From: Rugalucina vietnamica
Taxonomy: Eukaryota > Mollusca > Bivalvia > Lucinida > Lucinidae
Reading direction: 5' to 3'
Assembly: GCA_964017185.1 (NCBI GenBank)
Contig: OZ024874.1
Span: 15,309,957-15,373,956, forward strand
DNA: 64,000 nt
Shown here: positions 2,690 through 60,715 of the stretch, piece by piece
Position numbering within the stretch: position 1 is the stretch's first letter
How the letters are laid out: every line of letters begins with the position of its first letter
Made by a program: the position numbers and the translations under genes
The notes under the pieces: model-generated
What the model was told of the DNA's origin: nothing
The model's database searches: none
Seen by the model: the letters and a program-made list of their open reading frames with translations, nothing else

Positions 2690-3073
2690 CTAAAACAAAT
2701 TAAAAGCTGAATAAATAAAACATGCTATCCAATCATTTAAGGAAAATCATGGCTACAGTTATTAGGTTGTTTTGTTTTGCAACAGTATGCCAGTTCCTTT
2801 TAAATTACTTTCAGAATTCAAAATGTACTATGTATTGCTCAAAGATAATGCACATCTTGTCAAATCTTGTTTTTTATAATTTTTCATCTTTATCTCTCAA
2901 ATACTGTCATTTTTTACATGGGGCATTATCGTTTGCTTAGAGGAATTTCGTCAAAAATGTAATCAAATTTCAAAATCACTAACGATTCCTCTAAAACAGA
3001 AAGTAGACACATTCAATTGATCCCACTGATAGGGATGGGCAAGTCCATCACTTATGAGTAAAATTATGCTTAC
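2690..3073. other. short TULP4 intron, no repeats seen
   Basis: 384 bp, AT-rich, with acceptor TTGTTTTAG. No element recognised. Confidence 0.8.
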
Positions 3074-3305
3074 AGCCGTTCTCTTCCTCCCCCAGCCCCG
3101 CTGGTGTAAAGTTCCGGTCCTGGGACAGTAAAGAATCATCCTTTGGCAGCTCGGTCACAGTTACCGTCATCTGTCGCGGCTGGAGGTGCAGGAGACTTGT
3201 CTTGTACAGGACATTGCCCAGGTCCTCAGGCAGGTGGATGGCGGTGCCGATGATACGAAATTTGGTTCCCCAGATGTTGGACTGTACCTCTACCAGTTTA
3301 CTACT
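3074..3305 (-). CDS. TULP4: TULP4-like gene, exon 5 in window (tubby-like core)
   Basis: The exon is 232 nt, entering in phase 0 after TATTTTCAG and leaving after the first base of a codon at GGCT|GTAAGC. The peptide VQSNIWGTKFRIIGTAIHLP, then EDLGNVLYKTSLLHLQPRQM, is almost identical to vertebrate TULP4 (VTSNIWGTKFKIVG and NLGAVIYKTSLLHLQPRQM) and corresponds to the tubby signature SNFLGTKF / GAV.YETN / PRKM. Glutamine replaces the usual tubby lysine in PR(K/Q)M, as in vertebrate TULP4. It ends in an acidic linker (GLGEEENG). The intron to the next exon is only 384 bp. Confidence 0.95.
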
Positions 3306-3599
3306 CTGAAAATATATGGACAAAACATTTGAGGCTGGTAATGTACACATATTTAAAGTACACCAGCTCAGTAAAACATTTCTGATAAGAAGAATTTCAT
3401 TGGGGTCCACCAATCCAGTGGGAAATGAGGCTTGCTGGGTTGGGATTTTCCAGTCTCCAGACTACACTTATGAGGTATACTATTTCTTGTTTTTAATTGT
3501 CTCTGTTTTGGTAATTTTCACTGAAAACAAACAGTACAATCCCTCTGCTCCCTGTATCTGAAAATTCAGACCTCCAGCCATCTTTGTAGTATCACATAT

Positions 3600-7576: not shown

Positions 7577-9925
7577 AAAGCCCCTGTCACACACTCACGA
7601 AATGGACCTATGAGTTAAGCTCCGCCCACTTTTTTGGTATCTTGTAGCAACTTGTAGAGAACTCGCCATATGTCGGCTGTTGTCGTGCACAAGTCTTCCC
7701 AACTCGTAGCATGTCATGGGAAGGCTATTAGAATTTTAAACAGTTTAAAATTCTCGTAGCAACTTGCTGTCTAAAAATGGGCGGAGCATGGGCGAGGCAT
7801 TACCCGTAATATCGTGGGATGTTGTGCGTTCTAGGCGTTGTGTCAAATATAACCAGAGGACCAATGGTCCTGAGAACGCTCACCTGAAGCCTGATCCTGG
7901 AGTATTAAGTCATCATGAAATGACCTTGACCTTGAATACTCACACACCTTTATTGAATTCATAAGTTGTCTGCATCTGCAAAGATTCAGGTCTCAGGCTG
8001 CAATAGTTTACAAACCCAGTGATTTCTGAGAAAACTATAATTTTAATTTTGATATTCAAATGACCTTGGGTCAAGGTCAAGAAATGACCTTGGCCTTCAT
8101 TAATTACTTACCTTCATTGACTCCATCGGTTGTCTGCATCTAGCAACTTTCAGGTCTCAGACTGCAACAGTTTCCAAAATATCCATTGTTTTCGCCTTTT
8201 CCCATGTAAAAGCCTATGTTTCCAAAATTGACCTTGCCGTAAAATAGGTCAAGGTCATCCTATGGTCATCATTTGATCAAACTATGATGGGCTGGAGTCC
8301 CAAATGCTACATACCAAGTTTCGCGAAAATTGGCCTGCCGGTTCTGGAGAAGAAGATTTTTGAGTGTTTTTTACCATATATGGGCGTGGCAGCCATCTTG
8401 GTCATGTGACCTGGATTTCACGATCAAACTTTCGTCTCCCCTACCCATGGATGCTCCACATAAAATTTCACTTTGATTGGCCCAGCAGTTTCAGAGGAGA
8501 AGATCTGTGAAAAGTGTGTATGGGCGACAGACTGGCCAAGGTCAAGAGATAACCTTGACCTAAATTAATCACATACCTTCATCTACTCCATTAGTTGTTT
8601 GCATCCACCACTTTTCAGGCATCAGGCTGCAATAGTTTTAAAAAAATCCATAGTTTTCACTTTTTCCCATGTAAAAGCCTATGTTTCGAAAATTGACCTT
8701 GCCGTAAAATAGGTCAAGGTCATCCTAGGGTCATCATTTTATCAAACTATGATGGGCTGGAGTCCCAAATGCTACATACCAAGTTTCATGAAAATCGGCC
8801 AGCCGGTTCTGGAGAAGAAGATTTTTGAGTGGTTTTTACCATATATGGGCGTGGCGGCCATCTTGGTCATGTGACCTGGATTATTTATATATACATTGAT
8901 TCCCCCTTCACATAGATGCTTCATGTAAAATTTGGCTTTGATTGGCCAAGTGGTTTCAGAGAAGAAGATGTTTGAATATTATGATAATATACATGTATAT
9001 TGCCTCGGGGTGGGGGCGGATGAGCCCCTGGTGCCCAATTTTTTTCAGAATCATTAATATTCAGTCCTACTGCTCATTTTCTGCAAGATTTTTCCTTTAA
9101 ATGACAATTTAACAATTTTTCCCATTCAAATGCAAAGGCGACCTATGTTGACCTTGCCGTAAAATAGGTCAAGGTCACCGCAAGGTCATGATTTATATAC
9201 ACATTGTAGTACTTGAGTCATCGATGCTTCATGCCAAGTTTGGTTGAAATCGGTCCAGTGGTTCCGGAGAAGAAGATTTTTGAAGGGTTTTTACCATATA
9301 TGAGCATGGCGGCCATCTTGGTCATGTGACCTGGATTATTTATATACACATTGGTTCCCCCTTCCCATAGATGCTTCATGTAAAATTTGGCTTTGATTGG
9401 CCAAGCTGTTTCAGAGAAGAAGATCTTTGAAAATGGTGGACGACGGACGACGGACGGACGGACGACGGATGGACGACGGACGGACGGACGGACGACGGAG
9501 CATGGGTATACTATAAGCTCACCTTGTGAGCCTGACGGCTCAGGTGAGCTAACAAGTTACCTTCGAGTTATCTACGAGTTGCTACCAGTTGCTACGATAT
9601 TCAAGACTACTTCCAAAGATATACGACGACATATCGCGAGTTTACTACGACATGCCTCGAGTATCCACAAGTTTGACGACTTATATCATAGTGATGTCGT
9701 GTAGAACTCGTAGGACATTATAACTCATGGCAACTCGTGGGACAAGCGGCGAGTTATGATTTGCGCTAACTCAGAGCATGTCGTAGCTTCAATTCATGAG
9801 TGTGTGATAGCTTCTAAATTTTTCCAACTTAACTCGTGGCATCTTGCGCTACAAGGGGCGACTTATTACTCGTGCCAAGTCGTAGCATGCCGTAGCTTCA
9901 ACTCGTGTGTGACAGACCTTTTAAT
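7577..9925. mobile_element. TIR element split by T1 copy A
   Basis: The left tip AAAGCCCCTGTCACACACTC and the right tip (reverse complement AAAAGGTCTGTCACACACGA) form TIRs. The two halves, 7577-7852 and 9553-9925, are rich in ACTCGTAGCAACTCGT-type motifs. About 650 bp without the insertion. Confidence 0.7.
7853..9552. mobile_element. tandem-core element, family T1, copy A
   Basis: The left end is CCAGAGGACCAATGGTCC (a short palindrome) followed by CTCACCTGA. The body has degenerate ~460-bp units with TGACCTTGCCGTAAAATAGG, TCAAGGTCA, GGAGAAGAAGATTTTTGA and GGCCATCTTGGTCATGTGAC blocks. It ends with a (GGACGACGGACGG)n microsatellite (9436-9500) and CCTTGTGAGCC...GGCTCAGGTGAGCTAA. It interrupts a TIR element (7577-7852 and 9553-9925). 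No ORF. Confidence 0.85.
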
Positions 9926-15191: not shown

Positions 15192-17798
15192 AACCAGAGG
15201 ACCATTGGTCCTGAGAACGCTCACCTGAAGCCTGATCTTGGAGTATTAAGTCTTAATGAAATGACCTTGACCTTGAATACTCACACACCTTTATTCACTT
15301 CAAAAGTTGTCTGCATCTGCAAAGTTTCAGGTCTCAGGCGGCAATAGTTTCCAAACCCAGTGATTTCTGAGAAAACCATAATTTTAATTTTGATATTTAA
15401 ATGACCTTGGGCCAAGGTCAAGACATGACCTTGGCCTTCATTAATTACTTACCTTCATTGACACCATTAGTTGTCTGCATCTAGCAACTTTCAGGTCTCA
15501 GGCTGCAACAGTTTGTTTTCGCCTTTTCCCATGTGAAAGCCTATGTTTCCAAAATTGACCTTGCCGTAAAATAGGTCAAGGTCATCATAGGGTCATCATT
15601 TCAACAAACTATGATGGGCTGGAGTCCCAAATGCTACATACCAAGTTTCATGAAAATTGGCCTGCCGGTTCTGGAGAAGAAGATTTTTGAAAGGTTTTTA
15701 CCATATATGGGCGTGGCGGCCATCTTGGTCATGTGACCTGGATTTCGCGATCAAACTTTCGTCTCCCCTACCCATGGATGCTCCACATAAAATTTCACTT
15801 TGATTTGCCAAGCAGTTTCAGAGAAGAAGATCTTTGAAAAGTGTGTATGGACAACAGACTGGCCAAGGTCAAGAGATGACTTTGACCTATATTAAACACA
15901 TACCTTCATCTACTCCATTAGTTGTTTGCATCTACCACTTTTCAGGCCTCAGGCTGCAATAGTTTTCAAAAAATCCATAGTTTTCACTTTTTCCTATGTA
16001 AAAGCCTATGTTTCCAAATTTGACCTTGCCGTAAAATAGGTCAAGGTCATCCAAGGGTCATCATTTTATCAAACTATGATGGGCTGAGTTCCCCGATGCT
16101 ATATACAAAGTTTCGTGGAAATCGGCCCACCGGTTCTGGAGAAGAAGATTTTTGAGTGGTTTTAACCATATATGGGCGTGGCGGCCATCTTGGTCATGTG
16201 ACCTGGATTTTGCGATCAAACTTTCGTCTCCCTTACCCATGGATGCTCCACATAAAATTTCACTTTGATTGGCCGCGCAGTTTTAGAGAAGAAGATCTTT
16301 GTAAAGTGTGTATGGACAACAGACTGGCCAAGGTTAAGAGATGACCTTGACCTATATTACTCACATACCTTCATCTACTCCATTAGTTGTTTGCATCTAC
16401 CACTTTTCAGGCCTCATGCTGCAATATTTTAAAAAAAATCCATAGTTTTCACTTTTTCCTATGTAAAAGCCTATGTTTCCAAATTTGACCTTCCTGTAAA
16501 ATATGTCAAGGTCATCCAAGGGTCATCATTTTATCAAACTATGATGGGCTGAGGTCCTTGATGCTACATACCAAGTTTCGTGGAAATCGGCCAGCCAGTT
16601 CTGGAGAAGAAGATTTTTGAGTGGTTTTTACCATATATGGGCGTGGCGGCCATCTTGGTCATGTGACCTGGATTTCTCAATCAAACTTTCGTCTCCCCTA
16701 CCCATGGATGCTCCATATAAAATTTCACTTTGATTGGCCAAGCAGTTTCAGAGAAGAAGATCTTTGAAAAGTGTGTATGGACAACAGACTGGCCAAGGTC
16801 AAGAGATGACCTTGACCTATATTAATCACATACCTTCATCTACTCTATTAGTTGTTTGCATCTACCACTTTTCAGGCCTCAGGCTGCAATAGTTTTCAAA
16901 AAATCCATAGTTTTCAATTTTTCCTATGTAAAAGCCTATGTTTCCAAATTTGACCTTGCCGTAAAATAGGTCAAGGTCATCCAAGGGTCATCATTTTATC
17001 AAACTATGATGGGCTGATTTCCTTGATGCTACATACCAAGTTTCGTGGAAATCGGCCCACCGGTTCTGGAGAAGAAGATTTTTGAGTGTTTTTTACCATA
17101 TATGGGCGTGGCAGCCATCTTGGTCATATGACCTGGATTTCACGATCAAACTTTTGTCTCCCCTACCCATGGATGCTCCACATAAAATTTCACTTTGATT
17201 GGCCAAGCAGTTTCAGAGAAGAAGATCTTTGAAAAGTGTGTATGGACAACAGACTGGCCAAGGTCAAGATATGACCTTGACCTATATTAATCACATACCT
17301 TCATCTACTCCATTAGTTGTTTGCATCTACCACTTTTCAGGCCTCAGGCTGCAATAGTTTTCAAAAAATCCATAGTTTTCACTTTTTCCCATGTAAAAGC
17401 CTATGTTTCCAAATTTGACCTTGCCGTAAAATAGGTCAAGGTCATCCAAGGGTCATCATTTTATCAAACTATGATGGGCTGAAGTCCCCGATGCTACATA
17501 CCAAGTTTCGTGGAAATCGGCCCACCGGTTCTGGAGAAGAAGATTTTTGAAGGGTTTTTACCATATATGGGCGTGGCGGCCATCTTGGTCATGTGACCTG
17601 GATTTCGCGATCAAACTTGAAATGCCACTACCAAAGGAGGCTCCACATAAAATTTCAACAAGATCGGCCCAGCGGTTTCAGAGAAGAAGATCTTTGAAAT
17701 TGTGGACGACGGACGGACGACGGACGACGGACGGACGGACGCCGGATCATGGCCATCCTATAAGCTCACCTTGTGAGCCTTCGGCTCAGGTGAGCTAA
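15192..17798. mobile_element. tandem-core element, family T1, copy B
   Basis: Complete, with the CCAGAGGACCATTGGTCC left end and hairpin/GAGCTAA right end. The unit start GGCCAAGGTCAAGAGATGACC recurs at about 15863, 16325, 16792 and 17265, giving a 461-472 bp period and about 4.5 units. The microsatellite is at 17703-17750. Confidence 0.88.
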
Positions 17799-36938: not shown

Positions 36939-37166
36939 CTTAATGGTTGGAGAAAACAGGGCCTGTACGTTATCGTTGAGTTTCACCGGCAGCGGTAACT
37001 GACTGACGTTCCTTACGTTCTTGACGGCCTTCTGAACGATTCTCTGGCACAGGTACTGTAGTTTGGGGACGTGCTTGACCACCCACGTCACGTACAGGTT
37101 GTGTCCCGCAGCCACGAACAATCTCATGTCATTATGCCCCCAACATAGCGCTGTTAGTGGTTTACC
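36939..37166 (-). CDS. TULP4: TULP4-like gene, exon 2 in window (last WD40 strands and SOCS box)
   Basis: The exon is 228 nt, phase 0 to phase 0, with acceptor TTACAG and donor AAG|GTAAGC. The peptide opens GKPLTALCWGHNDMRLFVAAG, matching vertebrate TULP4 RPIISICWGHRDSRLLMASG. It then carries a SOCS box: a BC-box-like KLQYLCQRIV followed by a Cul5-box-like QLPLPVKL, and ends LFSPTIK, like vertebrate FIPTIK. The SOCS box is the module that docks Elongin B/C and Cullin 5, so the predicted role is ubiquitin-ligase substrate selection. The intron upstream is about 18 kb and contains the donor minisatellite. The intron downstream is about 15 kb and contains the foldback transposon. Confidence 0.92.
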
Positions 37167-39966: not shown

Positions 39967-41928
39967 CAGAGGACCACTGGTCCTGTAAACGCTCACCTGA
40001 GATCTGCTGTATATACGAATGTTATAGAAAATAGTCCGAGTAAAGGGGCAGGTGAGGCCCTTGGGCCAATATTTTCTCAGAATAATCAATATAGTCTCCA
40101 TACAAGTTTTTCCCTTCAAATGACATTTTAACAGTTTACCCATTCAAATACATAGGCAACCCATGTTGACCTTGCCTTAAAATAGGTCAAGGTCATCACA
40201 GGGTCAAGGTCATCACAGGGTCATGATTTATACATACATTGTAGTACTTGAGTCATCGATGCTTCATACCAAGTTTCTTCGAAATCTGTCCATCGGTTCC
40301 GAAGAAGAAGATTTTTGAAGGGTTTATACCATATATGGGCATGGCGGCAATCTTGGTCATGTACCTTGATTGTTTATATACACATTGATTCCCCCATTCT
40401 ATAGATGCTTCACATGAAATTTGGCTTTGATTGGATAAGCAGTTTCAGAGGAGAAGATGTTTGAATATTATGGTAATATATACATGTATAATGCCCCGGG
40501 GCTGGGGCAAATGAGCCCCTGGGGTCCAATTTTTTTCAGAATCATTAATATTCAGTCCTACTGCCCATTTCCTGCAAGACTTTCACTTTAAATGACATTT
40601 TAAAAGTTTTCCCCATTCAAATGCATTGGCGACCTATGTTGACCTTGCTGTAAAATAGGTCAATGTCATCCAAAGGTCATAATTTATAAACACATTGTAG
40701 TACTTCAGTCCCCGATGGTTCATGCCAAGTTTTGTTGAATCGGTCCATTGGTTCAGGAGAAGAAGAATTTTAAAAGGTTTTTACCATATATGGGCATGGC
40801 GGCCATCTTGGTCATGTGACCTGGATTATTTATAAACACATTGATTCCCCCTTCACACAGATAATTCCTATAAAATTTGGCTTTGATTGGCCAAGTGGTT
40901 TCAGAGAAGATCTTTGAAAATTTTTGTAATATACATGTATATTGCCCCGGGGTGGGGGCAGACCAACCCCTGGGGTCCAAAATTTTTTCAGAATTACCTA
41001 CCTTCAGTCCATTTGCCCATTTCCTGCAAGATTTGCCTTTCAAATGACATTTTAACAATTTTCTCCATTCAAATGCATGGGTGACCTATGTTGACCTTGC
41101 CGTAAAATAGGTCAAGGTCATCCAAAGGTCATAATTTATAGATACATTGTAGTACTCTAGTCCCTGATGCTTCATGCCAAGTTTCGTTGAAATCGGTCCA
41201 GTGGTTCTGGAGAAGAAGAATTTTGAAGGGTTTTTACCATATATGGGCATGGCGGCCATCTAGGTCATGTGACCTTGATAATTTATAAATACATTGGTTC
41301 CCCCTTCCTATAGATGCTTCCTATAAAATTTGGCTTTAATTGGCCAAGCGGTTTCAGAGAAGATCTTTGAATATTTTTGTAATATACATGTATATTGCCC
41401 CAGGGTGGGGGCAGACCAACCCCTGGGGTCCAAATTTTTTTCAGAATTACCTAACTTCAGTCCATTTGCCCATTTCCTGCAAGATTTGCCTTTCAAATGA
41501 CATTTTAACAATTTTCCCCATTCAAATACATGGCGACCTATGTTGACCTTGCCATAAAATAGGTCAAGGTCATCCAAAGGTCATAATTTATGAACACATT
41601 GTAGTACTCTAGTCCCCAGTGCTTCATGCCAAGTTTCGTTGAAATCGGTTCAGTGGTTTAGGAGAAGAAGAATTTTGAAGGGTTTTTACCATATATGGGC
41701 ATGGCGGCCATCTTGGTCATGTGACCTTGATAATTTAAATATACATTGATTCCCCCTTCCTATAGATGCTTCCTATAAAATTTGGCTTTGATTGGCCAAG
41801 CGGTTTCAGAGAAGAAGATCTTTGAAAATGGTGGACGATGGACGACGGACTGATGGACGACGGACGGACGCCGGATCATGGCCATCCTATAAGCTCACCT
41901 TGTGAGCCTAACGGCTCAGGTGAGCTAA
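39967..41928. mobile_element. tandem-core element, family T1, copy D
   Basis: Both ends are present (CAGAGGACCACTGGTCC; GGCTCAGGTGAGCTAA). The units repeat at about 450-475 bp, judged by GACCTATGTTGACCTTGC at ~40160, 40635, 41085 and 41540. The microsatellite is at 41832-41875. Confidence 0.85.
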
Positions 41929-43289: not shown

Positions 43290-45353
43290 TATGAATGTCA
43301 ACCGGAGTTCGAACGTTCAGACTTCGGATCCCGTACCGAAGTTCGGATCCAAATTTTAGCATCCGGACGTTCGCTAAAAAATCATCATGTTCAATATTTA
43401 GGGAAATTTCTTTTAATATATGTCAAAAATACACAAAATCTACTTAGCAGAATAGGAAACAAGGTATTGAATACGAATTTCTAAACATGTAGTGTCAAAG
43501 GTCACTAACAGGACAATGCAGGTCAAGGGGGAGCGATAATAAACAAAGAAAGGATTAAAGATGATAATTGGCCTCTTTTGTTTCCTTTTGAAAACGATAT
43601 GATTCACACTTATCAAGTTTTAAAAATTATAATTATACATACCTCGCCCAGCAAAAACAAGAAGTCAGATGATTGACAGATATATTTTGGGATTAAACAA
43701 AACAAGTATGGTTAAGATTTATGGTCGATTCGCGACCTTCCTGTTCGCACCCTATACCTGTTCGCTACCTGACCTGTTCGCTACCAACGCGTTCGCTACC
43801 TGTACATGTTCGCTACCTGGCATTTTCGCTACCTTACATTTTCGCTATCTGATTTTCTAAAATGTAAATGATAGTTTATAGAAGTGATGGTGAAGTCATA
43901 TAGATCTATATCATGAATATTTAATTTTGTTTCATGAAAATATGTACAACAGAAATTTTATAAACTATATTCATGGTTTAATACACATAAAATAATGATC
44001 GGTATTTACATACAAACACTTTTACACACACGATGTAGACAATTATAATTATTTATTTTAATATTTTCATAGACAATTAAAAGATGAGATCTGCTGATTG
44101 AGGTTATAATTTTAGCATAAAATATATTAAACATGTTAAAAAGAATTATACATTATGATTCTTTAATAAAAAATCTTAAAACATGAGCAATGATTAAAAA
44201 CATCTCAAAAAGGCAGAAATGTAATTTAGCATATATTTACTAATATACAGAGAATCAAATAAATAAATAAATAAATAAATAAAAACACTAAAATATAAAC
44301 ATGGCGTTAAAAATGAAAATCTGTAATATTGCATGGACCGTGTGTTTTCGTATTGAAAGGTTCCTTACCTGTGTCGCATTTACGGTGCTGCCACTCACCA
44401 CACCCGTCACACTGGACCGCATGTTGTCTGCTTGTTACTTTTTAGCACAGTGGATACAATTAAAAATTTCCGTTTCCCAATGGTTTTAAAAGATATCAAA
44501 GTTAAAACATTAAAACATTAATATTCAAAAGCATTCTAAAATCGAATTATTTAAAAACCATCATTTAAAAATTCAAAAGTCCTACTCGTGAGTAGGCTAC
44601 TAATCAACTGTGAAGTTTGCTAGTGAGTGAATAATTAACGATCATAATTGGCGGGAAGCTGTGAGGTTCGGTAGTGAGTGAATAATTAACGGTCATAATT
44701 GGGCGGGAAGCCGCGAAAAACATCGTGGTAGCGAACCGACTAGGGTCGATAAGGTGCGAAAAGGTGCGAAAAATACCGAGTAGCGAACGGACCAATGGGA
44801 GGTAGCGAACGGACTAAGTGCGAACGAACCAGGTCGCGAAAGATCCTGTTACCATGGTTACTATAATCGTAATTTGACAAATCAAATAGGCGGATTCTTA
44901 AGCTGCCCAGTTAATGCAAGGATGAATCACATTCGAAATACTAAAAGATTTTCAACATGTATAATGTGACTAAATTGAATTTGTTTGCTGACGCGGCAGT
45001 TCGACAAAATGGGAACTCGGTGAATGTTCGTAAATTTTGATAACAACATAATTTAATGTTGCATTATAGAGTTAGTTTTGAGTAATGCTGTTTTAGCGTG
45101 ATGTTTGTTACTTTTGGGAATGTAAATAAATTTTCCTAAATTGCATGGCGTTTTGTCTCTGCGTCCCATCAACGGAAACAACGCCAAGCTCAGTAACTCT
45201 TTATTATGAATGTTCTTGCAAGGCAGCACTCAATTAATACACATGTAAATGCAATATTATGACCTGATCCGAAAAAAAAATGCGAACGTTCGAACCATCC
45301 GGATGTTTGTTTCTGAACGTCCGAACCTTAAATCTGACACCGAATGACATCCC
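43290..45353. mobile_element. 2.06-kb insertion in T3 with 10-bp target duplication, Mutator-like
   Basis: The T3 unit is interrupted exactly. TACAAAATAT occurs at 43280-43289 and again at 45354-45363, and the core continues across the join. The ends are loosely inverted (left TGAATGTCAACCGG, right the reverse complement of GGGATGTCATTCGG). The ends hold GAACGTTCGAA/TCCGGAT-type motifs (43310-43375; 45282-45330). No transposase ORF was seen. A 9-10 bp duplication suggests the Mutator superfamily. Confidence 0.7.
43708..44855. mobile_element. nested TIR element with GTTCGCTACC boxes
   Basis: Near the left end GTTCGCTACC or close variants occur about six times (43741-43850). Near the right end the inverse GGTAGCGAAC recurs (44727-44815). 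The tips share TTCGCGACC in inverted orientation. Boundaries are approximate. It sits inside the 43290-45353 insertion. Confidence 0.55.
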
Positions 45354-46874: not shown

Positions 46875-48805
46875 AACATGTATATTGCCCCGGGTGTGGG
46901 CATATGAGCCCTTAGGTCCATTTTTTTTTTCAGATATTTAATTAATATTTAGTCCTACTACCCATTTCCTGCAAGATTTTTACCTCAAATGACTTTTTAA
47001 AAGTTTTCCCCATTCGCATTGGTGACCTATGTTGACCTTGTCGTAAAATAGGTCAAGGTCACCACAGGGTCATGATTTATATATACATTATAGAACTTCA
47101 GTTATTGGTGCTTCATGCCAAGTTTCTTTGAAATTGGTCCACCAGATTCGGAGAAGAAGATTTTTGAAGGGTTTTTACCATATATGGGCACGGCAGCCAT
47201 CTTGGTCATGTGAACTAGATAATTTATATATACATTAATTCCTATGCATATATTAAGCATTAATATAACTATGCACATATTAAGCATAGATGCTTCACAT
47301 AAAATTTGGCTTTGATTCAACAAGCGGTTTCAGAGGAGAAGATGATTGAATATTATGGTAATATACATGTATATTGCCCCGGGGTGGGGGCAGATGAGCC
47401 CCTGGGGTCCAATTTTTTTCAGAATCATTAATATTCAGTCCTACTGCCCATTTCCTGCAAGACTTTCACTTTAAATGACATTTTTAAAGTTTTCCCCATT
47501 CAAATGCTGGCGACCTATGTTGACTTTGCCGTAAAATAGGTCAAGGTCATCACAGGGTCATGATTTATAAATACATTGTAGTGCTTGAGCCATCAATGCT
47601 TCATGCCAAGTTTCTTTGAAATCGATCTATCGGTTCCGGAGAAGAAGATTTTTGAAGGGTTTTTACCATATATGGGCATAGCGGCCATCTTGGTCATGTG
47701 ACCTGGATTATTTATATATACATTGATAACCCCTTCCTATAGATGCTTCACATAAAATTTGGCTTTGATTGGCCAAGCGGTTTCAGAGGAGATGATGTTT
47801 GAATATTATGGTAATATACATGTATATTGCCTCGGGGTGGGGGCAGACCAACCCCTGGGGTCCAATTTTTTTCAGATTCATTAATATTCAGTCCTACTGC
47901 CCATTTCCTGCAAGACTTTCACTTTAAATGACATTTTAAAAGTTTTCCCCATTCAAATGCTGGCGACCTATGTTGACTTTGCCGTAAAATAGGTCACGGT
48001 CATCACAGGGTCATGATTTATATACACATTGTAGTGCTTGAGCCGTCGATGCTTCATGCCAAGTTTCTTTGAAATCAATCTATCGGTTCCGGAGAAGAAG
48101 ATTTTTGAAGGGTTTTTACCATATATGGGCATTGCGGCCATCTTGGTCATGTGACCTGGATTATTTATATATACATTGATAACCCCTTCCTATTGATGCT
48201 TCACATAAAATTTGGCTTTGATTGGCCAAGCGGTTTCAGAGGAGATGATGTTTGAATATTATGGTAATATACATGTACATGTATATTGCCCCGGGGTGGG
48301 GGCAGACCAACCCCTGGGGTCCAATTTTTTTCAGATTCATTAATATTCAGTCCTACTGCCCATTTCCTGCAAGACTGTCACTTTAAATGACATTTTAAAA
48401 GTTTTCCCCATTCAAATGCTGGCGACCTATGTTGACTTTGCCGTAAAATAGGTCAAGGTCATCACAGGGTCATGATTTATATATACAATGTAGCGCTTGA
48501 GCCATCGTACTTCATGCCAAGTTTTGTTGAAATCGGTCCATCGGTTCTGGAGAAGAAGATTTTTGAAGGGTTTTTACCATATATGGGCATGGTGGCCATC
48601 TTGGTCATGTGACCTGGATTTCTTATATACACATTGGTTCCCCCTTCCTATAGATGCTTCATATACAATTTGGCTTTGATTGGCCAAGCGGTTTCAGAGA
48701 AGAAGATCTTTGAAAATGGTGGACGACGGACGGACGACGACGACGGACGCCGGGTGCCTGCCTATCCTATAAGCTCGCCTTCGGCTCAGGTGAGCTAAAA
48801 ATGTG

Positions 48806-50917: not shown

Positions 50918-50960
50918 TTGTTTGTTTGCATTGAGGTTTAACATCCCAGTCAACAATATT
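50918..50960 (-). mobile_element. truncated S2 SINE tail abutting the 62-bp array
   Basis: The stretch holds the S2 tail (CATCCCAGTCAACAATATT) and stops exactly where the first array unit begins. The same SINE family in the same orientation lies just beyond the other end of the array. Confidence 0.75.
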
Positions 50961-53900
50961 TCGAAGCTGGCCAGAGGGTGAGTAGAAGTGTACCTTACCT
51001 GTGAGGGTACAGACACCCAATGTCGAAGCTGGCCGGATGGTGAGTAGAAGTGTACCTTACCTGTGAGGGTACAGACACCCAATGTCGAAGCTGGCCGGAT
51101 GGTGAGTAAAAGTGTACCTTACCTGTGAGGGTACAGACACCCAATGTCAAAGCTGGCCCGAGGGTGAGTAGAAGTGTACCATACCTATGAGGGTACAGAC
51201 ACCCAATGTCGAAGCTGGCCGGAGGGTGAGTAGAAGTGTACCATACCTGTGAGGGAACAGACACCCAATGTCAAAGCTGGCCAGAGGGTGATAAGAAGTG
51301 TACCATACCTGTGAGGGTACAGACACCCAATGTCAAAGCTGGCCAGAGGGTGAGTAGAAGTGTATCATACCTGTAAGGGTACAGACACCCAATGTCAAAG
51401 CTGGCCAGATGGTAAGTAGAAGTGTACCATACCTGTGAGGGTACAGGCACCCAATGTCAAAGCTGGCCAGATGGTGAGTAGAAGTGTACCATACCTGTGA
51501 GGGTACAGACACCCAATGTCAAAGCTGGCCAGATGGTGAGTAGAAGTGTACCATACCTGTGAGGGTACAGACACCCAATGTCAAAGCTGGCCAGAGGGTG
51601 AGTAGAAGTGTACCATACCTGTGAGGGTACAGACACCAAATGTCAAAGCTGACCAGATGGTGAGTAGAAGTGTACCATACCTGTGAGGGTACAGACACGC
51701 AATGTCGAAGCTGGCCAGATGGTGAGTAGAAGTGTACCATATCTGTGAGGGTACAGACACACAATGTCAAAGCTGGCCAGATGGTGAGTAGAAGTGTACC
51801 ATACCTGTGAGGGTACAGACACCCAATGTCGAAGCTGGCCAGATGGTGAGTAGAAGTGTACCATACATGTGAGGGTACAGACACCCAATGTCAAAGCTGG
51901 CCAGAGGGTGAGCAGAAGTGTATCATACGTGTGAGGGTTCAGACACCCAATGTCGAAGCTGGCCGGATGGTGAGAAGTGTACCATACCTGTGAGGGTACA
52001 GACACCCAATGTCGAAGCTGGCCAGAGGGCGAGTAGACGTGTACCATACCTGTGAGGGTTCAGACACCCAATGTCGAAGCTGGCCGGATGGTGAGTAGAA
52101 GTGTACCATACCTGTGAGGGTACAGACACCTAATGTCAAAGCTGGCCAGAGGGTGAGTAGAAGTGTACCATACCCGTGAGGGTTCAGACACCCAATGTCG
52201 AAGCTAGCTGGATGGTGAGTAGAAGTGTACCATACTTGTGAGGGTACAGACACCCAATGTCGAAGCTGGCCAGAGGGTGAGTAGAAGTGTACCATACCTG
52301 TGAGGGTTCAGACACCCAATGTCGAAGCTGGCTGGATGGTGAGTAGAAGTGTACCATACCTGTGAGGGTACAGACACCCAATGTCAAAGCTGGCCAGAGG
52401 GTGAGTAGAAGTGTATCATACCTGTAAGGGTACAGACACCCAATGTCAAAGCTGGCCAGATGGTAAGTAGAAGTGTACCATACCTGTGAGGGTACAGACA
52501 CCCAATGTCAAAGCTGGCCAGATGGTGAGTAGAAGTGTACCATACCTGTGAGGGTACAGACACCCAATGTCAAAGCTGGCCAGATGGTGAGTAGAAGTGT
52601 ACCATACCTGTGAGGGTACAGACACCCAATGTCAAAGCTGGCCAGAGGGTGAGTAGAAGTGTACCATACCTGTGAGGGTACAGACACCCAATGTCAAAGC
52701 TGACCAGATGGTGAGTAGAAGTGTACCATACCTGTGAGGGTACAGACACCCAATGTCGAAGCTGGCCAGATGGTGAGTAGAAGTGTACCATATCTGTGAG
52801 GGTACAGACACACAATGTCAAAGCTGGCCAGATGGTGAGTAGAAGTGTACCATACCTGTGAGGGTACAGACACCCAATGTCGAAGCTGGCCAGAGGGTGA
52901 GTAGAAGTGTACCTTACCTGTGAGGGTACAGACACCCAATGTCGAAGCTGGCCGGATGGTGAGTAGAAGTGTACCTTACCTGTGAGGGTACAGACACCCA
53001 ATTTCGAAGCTGGCCGGATGGTGAGTAAAAGTGTACCTTACCTGTGAGGGTACAGACACCCAATGTCGAAGCTGGCCAGAGGGTGAGTAGAAGTGTACCA
53101 TACCTATGAGGGTACAGACACCCAATGTCGAAGCTGGCCGGAGGGTGAGTAGAAGTGTACCATACCTGTGAGGGAACAGACACCCAATGTCGAAGCTGGC
53201 CAGAGGGTGATTAGAAGTGTACCATACCTGTGAGGGTACAGACACCCAATGTCAAAGCTGGCCAGAGGGTGAGTAGAAGTGTATCATACCTGTAAGGGTA
53301 CAGACACCCAATGTCAAAGCTGGCCAGATGGTAAGTAGAAGTATACCATACCTGTGAGGGTACAGGCACCCAATGTCAAAGCTGGCCAGATGGTGAGTAG
53401 AAGTGTACCATACCTGTGAGGGTACAGACACCCAATGTCAAAGCTGGCCAGATGGTGAGTAGAAGTGTACCATACCTGTGAGGGTACAGACACCCAATGT
53501 CAAAGCTGGCCAGAGGGTGAGTAGAAGTGTACCATACCTGTGAGGGTACAGACACCAAATGTCAAAGCTGACCAGATGGTGAGTAGAAGTGTACCATACC
53601 TGTGAGGGTACAGACACGCAATGTCGAAGCTGGCCAGATGGTGAGTAGAAGTGTACCATATCTGTGAGGGTACAGACACACAATGTCAAAGCTGGCCAGA
53701 TGGTGAGTAGAAGTGTACCATACCTGTGAGGGTACAGACACCCAATGTCGAAGCTGGCCAGATGGTGAGTAGAAGTGTACCATACATGTGAGGGTACAGA
53801 CACCCAATGTCAAAGCTGGCCAGAGGGTGAGCAGAAGTGTATCATACGTGTGAGGGTTCAGACACCCAATGTCGAAGCTGGCCGGATGGTGAGAAGTGTA

Positions 53901-55630
53901 CCATACCTGTGAGGGTACAGACACCCAATGTCGAAGCTGGCCAGAGGGTGAGTAGACGTGTACCATATACCTGTGAGGGTTCAGACACCCAATGTCGAAG
54001 CTGGCCGGATGGTGAGTAGAAGTGTACCATACCTGTGAGGGTACAGACACCTAATGTCAAAGCTGGCCAGAGGGTGAGTAGAAGTGTACCATACCCGTGA
54101 GGGTTCAGACACCCAATGTCGAAGCTAGCCGGATGGTGAGTAGAAGTGTACCATACTTGTGAGGGTACAGACACCCAATGTCGAAGCTGGCCAGAGGGTG
54201 AGTAGAAGTGTACCATACCTGTGAGGGTTCAGACACCCAATGTCGAAGCTGGCTGGATGGTGAGTAGAAGTGTACCATACCTGTGAGGGTACAGACACCC
54301 AATGTCAAAGCTGGCCAGAGGGTGAGTAGAAGTGTATCATACCTGTAAGGGTACAGACACCCAATGTCAAAGCTGGCCAGATGGTAAGTAGAAGTGTACC
54401 ATACCTGTGAGGGTACAGACACCCAATGTCAAAGCTGGTCAGATGGTGAGTAGAAGTGTACCATACCTGTGAGGGTACAGACACCCAATGTCAAAGCTGG
54501 CCAGATGGTGAGTAGAAGTGTACCATACCTGTGAGGGTACAGACACCCAATGTCAAAGCTGGCCAGAGGGTGAGTAGAAGTGTACCATACCTGTGAGGGT
54601 ACAGACACCCAATGTCAAAGCTGACCAGATGGTGAGTAGAAGTGTACCATACCTGTGAGGGTACAGACACCCAATGTCGAAGCTGGCCAGATGGTGAGTA
54701 GAAGTGTACCATATCTGTGAGGGTACAGACACACAATGTCAAAGCTGGCCAGATGGTGAGTAGAAGTGTACCATACCTGTGAGGGTACAGACACCCAATG
54801 TCGAAGCTGGCCAGATGGTGAGTAGAAGTGTACCATACATGTGAGGGTACAGACACCCAATGTCAAAGCTGGCCAGAGGGTGAGTAGAAGTGTATCATAC
54901 GTATGAGGGTTCAGACACCCAATGTCGAAGCTGGCCAGATGGAGAGAAGTGTACCATACCTGTGAGGGTACAGACACCCAATGTCGAAGCTGGCCAGAGG
55001 GTGAGTAGACTTGTACCATACCTGTAAGGGTTCAGACACCCAATGTCGAAGCTGGCCGTATGGTGAGTAGAAGTGTACCATACCTGTGAGGGTACAGACA
55101 CCTAATGTCAAAGCTGGCCAGAGGGTGAGTAGAAGTGTACCATAACCGTGAGGGTTCAGACACCCAATGTCGAAGCTGGCCGGATGGTGAGTAGAAGTGT
55201 ACAATACCTGTCAGGGTACAGACACCCAATGTCGAAGCTGGCCAGAGGGTGAGTAGAAGTGTACCATACCTGTGAGGGTTCAGACACCCAATGTCGAAGC
55301 TGGCTTGATGGTGAATAGAAGTGTACCATACCTTTGAGGGTACAGACACCCAATGTCAAAGCTGGCCAGAGGGTGAGTAGAAGTGTACCATACCTGTGAG
55401 GGTACAGACACCCAATGTCAAAGCTGGCCAGAGAGTGAGTAGAATTGCACCATACCTGTGAGGGTACAGACACCCAATGTCAAAGCTGGCCAGAGGGTGA
55501 GTAGAAGTGTACCATACCTGTGAGGGTACAGACACCCAATGTCTGAGTTGGACGGAGGGTGAGTAGAAGTGTACCTTACCTGTGAGGGAACAGACACCCA
55601 ATGTCGAAGCTGGCCGGAGGGTGAGTAGAA
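50961..55630 (-). repeat. 62-bp minisatellite of TULP4 exon-end plus splice donor, about 75 units
   Basis: About 75 head-to-tail units of 62 bp. Read on the gene strand, each unit encodes the exon-1 terminal peptide YSPSGQLRHWVSVPSQ followed by a donor-like CAG|GTATGG, or CAG|GTAAGG in at least seven units (near 50993, 51055, 51117, 52913, 52975, 53037, 55575). The unit at 55580-55630 is the real exon end. Because 62 is not a multiple of three, successive units read in the three frames in turn, so long open frames recur without being genes. A few units have lost the donor (CAG to CAT, or GT to AT). Confidence 0.97.
51457..53376. repeat. higher-order repeat of about 1.92 kb (31 monomers) inside the 62-bp array
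   Basis: Segments with the same private variants recur at an offset of 1919-1921 bp: 51457-51639 with 53376-53558, 51519-51884 with 53438-53803, and 52184-52501 with 54105-54422. A third partial copy (54491-54856) lies 2972 bp from the first. This is a 31-monomer block duplicated within the array, showing recent large-scale unequal exchange. Confidence 0.85.
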
Positions 55631-55722
55631 ATGTATTTCATTCTGACACTGTAGGTTAGGCAGTCTGGTGAACCCTCCCACAGCAAGGTATTGACCACAG
55701 TTAGACCAGTCGAGTCGTAAAC
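55580..55722 (-). CDS. TULP4: TULP4-like gene, exon 1 in window (WD40 region)
   Basis: On the minus strand a TATTCCAG acceptor precedes 143 nt: two bases finishing a split codon, then 47 codons, ending CAG|GTAAGG. The peptide includes LDWSNCGQYLAVGGF and FYSPSGQLRHWVSVPSQ. From memory of vertebrate TULP4 it matches the WD40 strand pair around QWCTQGDLLAVAG and the following VKFYNVRGEHIF block. It ends in phase 0, as the exon at 37166 requires, and the joined product aligns without a gap. TULP4 is a WD40-SOCS-tubby protein thought to act as a substrate receptor of an Elongin B/C-Cullin 5 ubiquitin ligase. The oddity is that the last ~50 nt plus the donor are the first unit of the 62-bp tandem array that fills the next 4.6 kb. 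Upstream exons were not found in the window. Confidence 0.9.
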
Positions 55723-55744
55723 CTGGAATATAAAGAAAACTGTT

Positions 55745-55955
55745 TGGTTGTTTTGTGGCTTGGCATCCCAGTCAACAATTTTTCAGTCATGTTAAGATGA
55801 AGGCAACACTTCTGGGTATTAAACAACTCATTAAACAACTCATATTATGGGACATTTATGTGTCTTGCTAAAGAACACTTCCCCGTGCCAGTGATTTGGA
55901 ACCCAGGATCTTTTGATGCGCAGTCCAATGCTCTATCATTAGGTATCTCACTCCC
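55745..55955 (-). mobile_element. tRNA-derived SINE (family S2) just upstream of exon 1
   Basis: It shares with 28625-28845 and 21240-21435 the tail block CCCAGTCAACAATTTTTCAG, a middle block around GTGTCTTGC, and a tRNA-like head on the minus strand near the right end. It ends about 20 bp before the exon-1 acceptor, next to its polypyrimidine tract. Confidence 0.75.
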
Positions 55956-56033: not shown

Positions 56034-56089
<56 letters not shown>

Positions 56090-56178
56090 AACGATAATGC
56101 TGATGCTAATAATGATGATTATAATGATGATGACAATGATGATGCTGAAGCTGATGCTGACAATGATGATGATGGTGG

Positions 56179-56243
<65 letters not shown>

Positions 56244-56415
56244 CTGATGCTAATAATGATGATTATAATGATGATGACAATGATGGTGCTGAAGCTGATG
56301 CTGACAATGATGATGATGGTGGTGATGGTGATAATGCTGATGCTAATAATGATGATGACGATGATTATGATGATAATTATGATGAAGGTGATGATAATGA
56401 TGATGAAGTCACAAT
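56034..56415. repeat. imperfect (GAT)n microsatellite with ~147-bp internal duplication
   Basis: Pure ATG runs alternate with an interrupted block (CGATAATGCTGATGCTAATA...) that appears twice, at 56086 and 56233, and partly again at 56327. Confidence 0.95.
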
Positions 56416-58632: not shown

Positions 58633-58784
58633 ATAGATTATAGGGATGTATTGAACACTCTAGTGCTATATTAGGCAAGAAACTTTTACACTCATGACAA
58701 TGAATTTGCAGGAGGCTGAAATCATTATCTTTCATTTTTACAACCACAAATTTCACGGTTTAAGACTTGAAGCAAGCTTAGTAA

Positions 58785-60715
58785 GATGGTGAAGGCATCA
58801 GTTAGATGGTGTGTGGCATTAGTAAGATGGTGTGTGGCATCAGTAAGATGGTGTGTGGCATAAGTAAGATGGTGTGTGGCATCAGTAAGATTGTGTGGCA
58901 TCAGTAAGATGGTGTGTGGCATCAGTAAGATTGTGTGGCATCAGTAAGATGGTGTGTGGCATCAGTAAGATGGTGTGTGGCATCAGTAAGATGGTGTGTG
59001 GCATCAGTAAGATGGTGTGTGGCATCAGTAAGATGGTGTGTGGCATCTGTAAGATGGTGTGTGGCATCAGTTAGATGGTGTGTGGCATCAGTAAGATGGT
59101 GTGTGGCATCAGTAGTATGGTGTGTGGCATCAGTAAGATGGTGTGTGGCATCAGTAAGATGGTGTGTGGCATCAGTAAGATGGTGTGTGGCATCAGTAGT
59201 ATGGTGTGTGGCATCAGTAGTATGGTGAAGGCATCAGTAAGATGGTGTGTGGCATCAGTAAGATGGTGTGTGGCATAAGTAAGATGGTGTGTGGCATCTG
59301 TAAGATGGTGTGTGGCATCAGTAAGATGGTGTGTGGCATCAGTAAGATGGTGTGTAGCATCAGTAAGATGGTGTGTGGCATCAGTAAGATGGTGTGTGGC
59401 ATCAGTAAGATGGTGTGTGGCATCAGTAAGATGGTGTGTGGCATCAGTAAGATGGTGTGTGGCATCAGTAAGATGGTGTGTGGCATCAGTAGTATGGTGT
59501 GTGGCATCAGTAGTATGGTGAAGGCATCAGTAAGATGGTGTGTGGCATCAGTAAGATGGTGTGTGGCATAAGTAAGATGGTGTGTGGCATCTGTAAGATG
59601 GTGTGTGGCATCAGTAAGATGGTGTGTGGCATCAGTAAGATGGTGTGTGGCATCAGTAAGATGGTGTGTGGCATCAGTAAGATGGTGTGTGGCATCAGTA
59701 AGATGGTGTGTGGCATCAGTAAGATGGTGTGTGGCATCAGTAGTATGGTGTGTGGCATCAGTAAGATGGTGTGTGGCATCAGTAAGATGGTGTGTGGCAT
59801 CAGTAGTATGGTGTGTGGCATCAGTAGTATGGTGAAGGCATCAGTAAGATGGTGTGTGGCATCAGTAAGATGGTGTGTGGCATAAGTAAGATGGTGTGTG
59901 GCATCAGTAAGATGGTGTGTGGCATAAGTAAGATGGTGTGTGGCATCAGTAAGATGGTGTGTGGCATCAGTAGTATGGTGTGTGGCATCAGTAAGATGGT
60001 GTGTGGCATCAGTAAGATGGTGTGTGGCATCAGTAAGATGGTGTGGCATCAGTAGTATGGTGTGGCATCAGTAAGATGGTGTGTGGCATCAGTAAGATGG
60101 TGTGTGGCATCAGTAAGATGGTGTGTGGCATCAGTAGTATGGTGTGTGGCATCAGTAAGATGGTGTGTGGCATCAGTAAGATGGTGTGTGGCATCAGTAA
60201 GATGGTGTGGCATCAGTAGTATGGTGTGGCATCAGTAAGATGGTGTGTGGCATCAGTAAGATGGTGTGTGGCATCAGTAACATGGTGTGTGGCATCAGTA
60301 ACATTGTGTGGCATCAGTAGTATGGTGTGGCATCAGTAGTATGGTGTGTGGCATCAGTAGGATGGTGTGTGGCATCAGTAAGATGGTGTGGCATCAGTAA
60401 GATCGTGTGGCATCAATAAGATGGGGTGTGGCATCAATAAGATGGGGTGTGGCATCATTAAGATGGTGTGGCATCAGTGGCATCTGTAAGATGGTGTGTG
60501 GCATCTGTAAGATGGTGTGGGCATCAGTTAGATGGTGTGGCATCAGCAAGATAGTGTGGCACCAGTAATATGGTGTGTGGCATCAGCAAGATAGTGTGGC
60601 ACCAGTAATATGGTGTGTGGCATCAGTAAGATGGTGTGTGGCATCAGTAAGATGGTGTGTGGCATCAGTTAGATGGTGTGTGGCATCAGTAAGATGGTGG
60701 GACATCAAATAGACG
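58785..60715. repeat. 21-bp minisatellite, about 90 units
   Basis: The unit is GTAAGATGGTGTGTGGCATCA. Because 21 is a multiple of three, uninterrupted frames run on both strands (MVCGISK... and MPHTILL...); these are not genes. Marker units with GGTGAAGGCATCAG recur at 58790, 59225, 59518 and 59832, showing block duplications of 14-15 units. The 3' third degenerates with 19-bp units. Confidence 0.95.

Follow-up and report, generated by a model that had tools for sequence, protein, structure and literature searches.

A donor-containing minisatellite of about 75 copies in an intron of a likely TULP4 gene of the bivalve Rugalucina vietnamica

The end of a coding exon, together with its splice donor, is amplified about 75-fold into the downstream intron of a likely TULP4 gene in the bivalve Rugalucina vietnamica. 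In the analyzed stretch of 64,000 nt (hereafter the window), TRF delimited a tandem array at 50964-55635 with a period of 62, 75.5 copies, and 92% matches, a span that takes in the exon's own last 56 nt. The array of short units is real, is contiguous with the exon, and most likely represents a neutral expansion. It appears to be a large case of a known kind, the donor-containing minisatellite, with many copies and much exon in each unit.

The source segment occupies 62 bp on the minus strand (55574..55635) and is made up of 56 nt from the end of the exon and the 6 intronic nt that follow, GTAAGG. In register, 56 of its 62 positions are identical to the unit consensus. The first-pass annotation had described a 62-bp unit with about 50 nt of exon; the unit length stood, while the exonic part is refined to 56 nt, followed by the 6 intronic nt. 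Beyond the source segment, the minisatellite itself (50961..55573, minus strand) carries 74 further junctions in donor register, as established from TRF, the unit list, the donor tables, and the distal end. Four of the 74 complete units deviate from 62 bp (59, 64, 59, and 59 bp). Elsewhere in the window, the unit gave only eight short matches of 11-17 nt (E 0.86-3.0), which were taken as chance.

Including the authentic donor, 75 donor-register junctions were counted on the minus strand, from 55580/55579 (authentic; the slash marks the splice site) to 50999. The amplification of exon end and donor that had been proposed from the letters is thus confirmed by the copy number and by the junction count alike. 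Array units repeat the authentic donor, with GT intact at 70 of 75 junctions. The donor 9-mer is CAG/GTATGG at 44 junctions and CAG/GTAAGG at 7, so the claim that each unit carries one of these two holds at the 51 junctions with an exact CAG/GTAWGG, while 24 carry other 9-mers. Across the window, CAGGTAWGG occurs 52 times, always on the minus strand, which bears out the placement of the unit on the transcribed strand; 51 of these occurrences are in array register, the authentic donor included, and the only one outside it lies at 44363-44371. In the dinucleotide-shuffled window the motif was found 0.94 times on average and 4 times at most, and the array is therefore far beyond chance.

The TULP4 layout comprises a WD40 propeller, a SOCS box, and a Tub domain in that order. 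The source of the repeat is an internal coding exon of 143 nt in a TULP4-like gene (55580..55722, minus strand), recognised by its acceptor TTCCAG/GT (55723/55722), its donor CAG/GTAAGG, and homology. The next recognised exon, of 228 nt (36939..37166, minus strand), is open in frame and has the acceptor TTACAG/GG, the donor AAG/GTAAGC, and a SOCS box. When the authentic donor, donor 1, is joined to 37166, residues 4-75 of the joined peptide match PF24797, the WDR35/TULP N-terminal profile (E 8e-07, 28.9 bits, curated cut-off 80), followed by a SOCS box match (E 0.00033, 21.2 bits, cut-off 23.5), so that the homology spans the junction. Two PDB sequences of WDR35 also match the joined peptide (E 0.0018), and a weak Tub match lies further downstream (E 0.025, 14.7 bits, cut-off 27). 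Along the minus strand, the PF24797 match is followed by the SOCS match and then by the Tub match. The ORF at 3048-3461 (one weak unrelated match) and two pieces near 20.4-21.9 kb (three weak unrelated matches) matched no Tub chain in the PDB. Judged from the homology across the junction, TULP4 is likely the gene that carries the array, as had been proposed, although every Pfam match falls below its curated cut-off. Since the joined peptide matches the WDR35/TULP4 profile, the SOCS box, and WDR35 in the PDB, the exon is the source of the array and not the reverse. The match of the 143-nt exon starts near position 259 of the 332-position PF24797 profile, which together with the acceptor-like start makes it an internal exon and not the exon 1 that it had been called. 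A literature search for TULP4 together with mollusc returned no paper.

The intron from donor 1 to the exon at 37166 measures 18,413 nt. Joined to 37166, donor 1 is the only one of the 75 donors with which that exon is read through without a stop, while all 74 alternative donors meet a stop, in agreement with the earlier claim that only the first donor is productive. In the exon frame, the stop is codon 72 with donor 2, codon 90 with donor 3, and codon 101 with donors 4-75. The last of these is a TGA at 55418..55420 on the minus strand, met in the frame walk with donor 4 or any later one; it lies in the third unit past the exon, which is the fourth copy when the exon's own is counted, and so matches the stop that had been placed in the fourth unit near 55415. 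The array was rejected as a protein-coding extension, as no listed stop-to-stop run that lies entirely within it exceeds 162 aa and the period of 62 is not divisible by 3.

All 75 donors were scored with a human donor matrix and human U1 letters, which may not be those of the bivalve; on this scale, donor 1 (CAG/GTAAGG, 55574..55582, minus strand) scores 11.4 bits and pairs with the U1 5' end at -11.5 kcal/mol, while donors 2-41 reach at most 8.42 bits and -9.1 kcal/mol. The description of the donors as equivalent is therefore abandoned. Donor 1 is matched in score by six array donors (42-44 and 73-75), the first of which, donor 42, lies 2,538 nt further on. Donors 2-41, with their weaker +4 T, may have been selected or may descend from a single mutated founder. 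Across the 74 units, 11 distinct variant types of the donor 9-mer occur, compared with 7.0 in the average 9-nt stretch; four of the 62 overlapping circular 9-nt stretches of the unit reach 11. Because the array units are related to one another, this reading is limited to an apparent lack of any sign of conservation of the array donors. The locus provides a natural test of spliceosome choice among dozens of near-copy donors, with one of 75 productive, the next 40 weaker, and equals from 2.5 kb onward.

We infer that the array is likely a largely neutral minisatellite, with donor 1 serving most transcripts and a small nonproductive leak. Donor 1 would be chosen through exon definition and through its strength relative to the next 40 donors, and the array would be removed together with the intron. 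Slight leakage to the nearest array donors would produce early-stop transcripts, which would be degraded. Since the junction is copied at the end of every unit, added units would only lengthen the 18.4-kb intron and leave donor 1 beside the exon.

A minisatellite with multiple splice donors in IFI6 (6-16) is, by its title, the subject of Turri 1995, and Lievers 2001 is cited for the 31-bp VNTR of CBS. The first-pass annotation knew of no described minisatellite made of an exon end plus donor, a statement that gives way to cases in print for human ABCA7 (PMC5954066), CBS (PMC2630376), and IFI6 (PMC4526556). Donor-containing minisatellites, in print for human genes, thereby gain a gene of another species. 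According to PMC5954066, intron 18 of ABCA7 holds a 25-bp VNTR that starts at the GT of the intron and includes the exon-18 donor, with alleles reaching 9,711 bp. When the next donor is used, one unit is retained and the frame is shifted; the two frameshifting isoforms account for 14 +/- 6 and 2 +/- 1%, neither of them length-dependent, and the second value is taken as that of unit retention because of the order in which the text presents them. As the VNTR lengthens, skipping of exon 19 increases and expression decreases (PMC5954066). Both arrays begin at and include the donor of their exon, and in both the next donor retains a unit and shifts the frame. The ABCA7 unit differs in measuring 25 bp from the GT, and its length variation and splicing were measured, whereas the TULP4-like array is known from one sequence. 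Among the sources consulted, ABCA7 is the best measured precedent. Its donors behave as the largely neutral reading expects, with a one-unit retention of about 2% that is independent of length. To call the array inert may be too simple, because ABCA7 array length altered downstream exon skipping and expression.

A regulated poison cassette would have the array donors used at a substantial, controlled rate, with array length and U1 supply tuning the output of the gene via nonsense-mediated decay. Such a cassette would make sense of the stops reached from all 74 alternative donors, of the GT kept in 69 of them, and of the six that equal donor 1 in score, and ABCA7 offers a parallel in the expression that drops with VNTR length. 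We nevertheless consider it unlikely, since donor 1 outscores donors 2-41, the array donors show no sign of conservation, and the ABCA7 isoform with a retained unit stays at about 2% whatever the length.

The CBS VNTR, c.1444_1467+7(16_21), has a 31-bp unit that by its name comprises 24 exonic and 7 intronic nt in 16-21 copies (PMC2630376), and a table places it at exon 13-intron 13 (PMC1395315). By these coordinates, its unit likewise joins an exon end to an intron start and repeats the donor. Its 24 + 7 nt in 16-21 copies compare with 56 + 6 nt in about 75 copies in the TULP4-like array, in which the exonic share per unit is larger. The IFI6 minisatellite gives multiple donors, and two downstream units are used according to PMC4526556. 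Repeated donors follow the exon in both genes, some of them being used in IFI6; the IFI6 variants are said there to encode isoforms, whereas every alternative donor of the TULP4-like array leads to a stop. The features that distinguish the array from the known cases are its large exonic share and its acceptor-like unit ends.

A recursive splice site, or ratchet point, consists of a pyrimidine tract followed by YAG/GT and is used stepwise. Given the acceptor-like unit ends, recursive splicing is possible: a splice into a unit end, used as an acceptor, would restore a donor (CAG/GTATGG), and the array would be removed in steps with the mRNA unchanged. The AG of each unit end stands directly before a donor, and splicing from donor 1 to a unit end would hence regenerate the exon together with a donor. 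Most units run from GT to AG, which makes the array a chain of such stretches, and YAG/GTAWG occurs 58 times in the window, always on the minus strand and 57 times in array register. Among these 57, the exon end included, 52 have an upstream pyrimidine fraction of at least 0.625, and T-type units, those with CTTTGA, can carry the branch-like motif TTGAC, which in the one such unit examined stands 24 nt ahead of the unit end with no AG between. A further parallel is intron gain by tandem AGGT duplication, for which PMC4974935 cites an example from fission yeast in which 24-bp duplicates are multiple. There as here a duplicated AG/GT segment yields GT...AG stretches; in that process an exonic AGGT gives rise to a new intron, whereas the TULP4-like array consists of many copies, within the intron, of an exon/intron junction that already existed. 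However, the pyrimidine content is middling (mean 0.62), 23% of the 1635 minus-strand YAG outside the array also reach 0.625, and CTTCGA, found in 34 units against 39 with CTTTGA, is without the TTGAC branch-like motif. Moreover, repeated acceptor-like signals follow from duplication alone, because the source exon carries the same signals. We therefore rate stepwise removal as very unlikely; if it took place, the intron would be shortened stepwise with the message unchanged, and the array would be a frame-safe aid to intron removal. A literature search combining recursive-splicing and tandem-repeat terms found no paper.

Under the preferred, largely neutral reading, the array would have arisen when a 62-bp segment across the exon/intron junction (56 exonic nt followed by GTAAGG) was duplicated in tandem; unequal exchange would then have enlarged it, and in the last step that can still be seen an array of 44 units would have gained 31 more. 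A 31-unit block made up of units 45-75, of which the final one is cut (50961..52855, minus strand), is a copy of units 14-44, with 11 differing columns out of 1897 (99.4% identity). Units 4-21 and 21-38 are 97.9% identical, and when the comparison was widened to units 4-27 and 21-44 the identity was 96.5%, the 17-unit repeat not extending cleanly. Distally, the array is broken off within a unit, at 50961, where it is joined to an interspersed-repeat tail. Stepwise unequal exchange, with a last visible step from 44 to 75 units, is the simplest account of this history. In a variable species, 0.6% is a plausible allelic distance. As units 14-44 and 45-75 differ by just this amount, a real array could have been made over-long in the assembly by two haplotypes joined end to end. 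We regard such a join as quite improbable, since unequal exchange predicts the same picture and the older block at 97.9% suggests earlier growth; about 44 units would be left either way.

The tail fused to the distal end belongs to a truncated SINE-like interspersed repeat (50919..50962, minus strand), which overlaps the array by 2 bases and is 82% identical to 55784-55741 and 88% to 28677-28636. Just upstream of the exon, in the same orientation as the distal tail, lies a SINE-like copy (55743..55941, minus strand; 68% over 204 columns to 28822-28636) that in our own reading has a tRNA-like head. ARAGORN found no tRNA gene, and no known RNA family was matched at gathering score within the window. 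Tails of one SINE-like family at 55741-55784 and 50919-50962 thus flank the exon and the array in the same orientation, and exchange between them would delete the exon. Further partial matches to the family occur near 28.6, 21.3, 35.4, and 13.7 kb.

The window contains 11 tandem arrays longer than 350 bp, the donor array included, and as they cover 26.6% of it, array growth is common in this stretch. Arrays with units of 452-465 bp lie at 8072-8976, 15410-17699, 40202-41829, and 47286-48714. Across the exon from the donor array, a 21-bp array at 58780-60699 comprises 92.6 copies of AGTAAGATGGTGTGTGGCATC. An imperfect trinucleotide (ATG) tract at 56034-56406 has a higher-order period of 144 bp in 2.6 copies.
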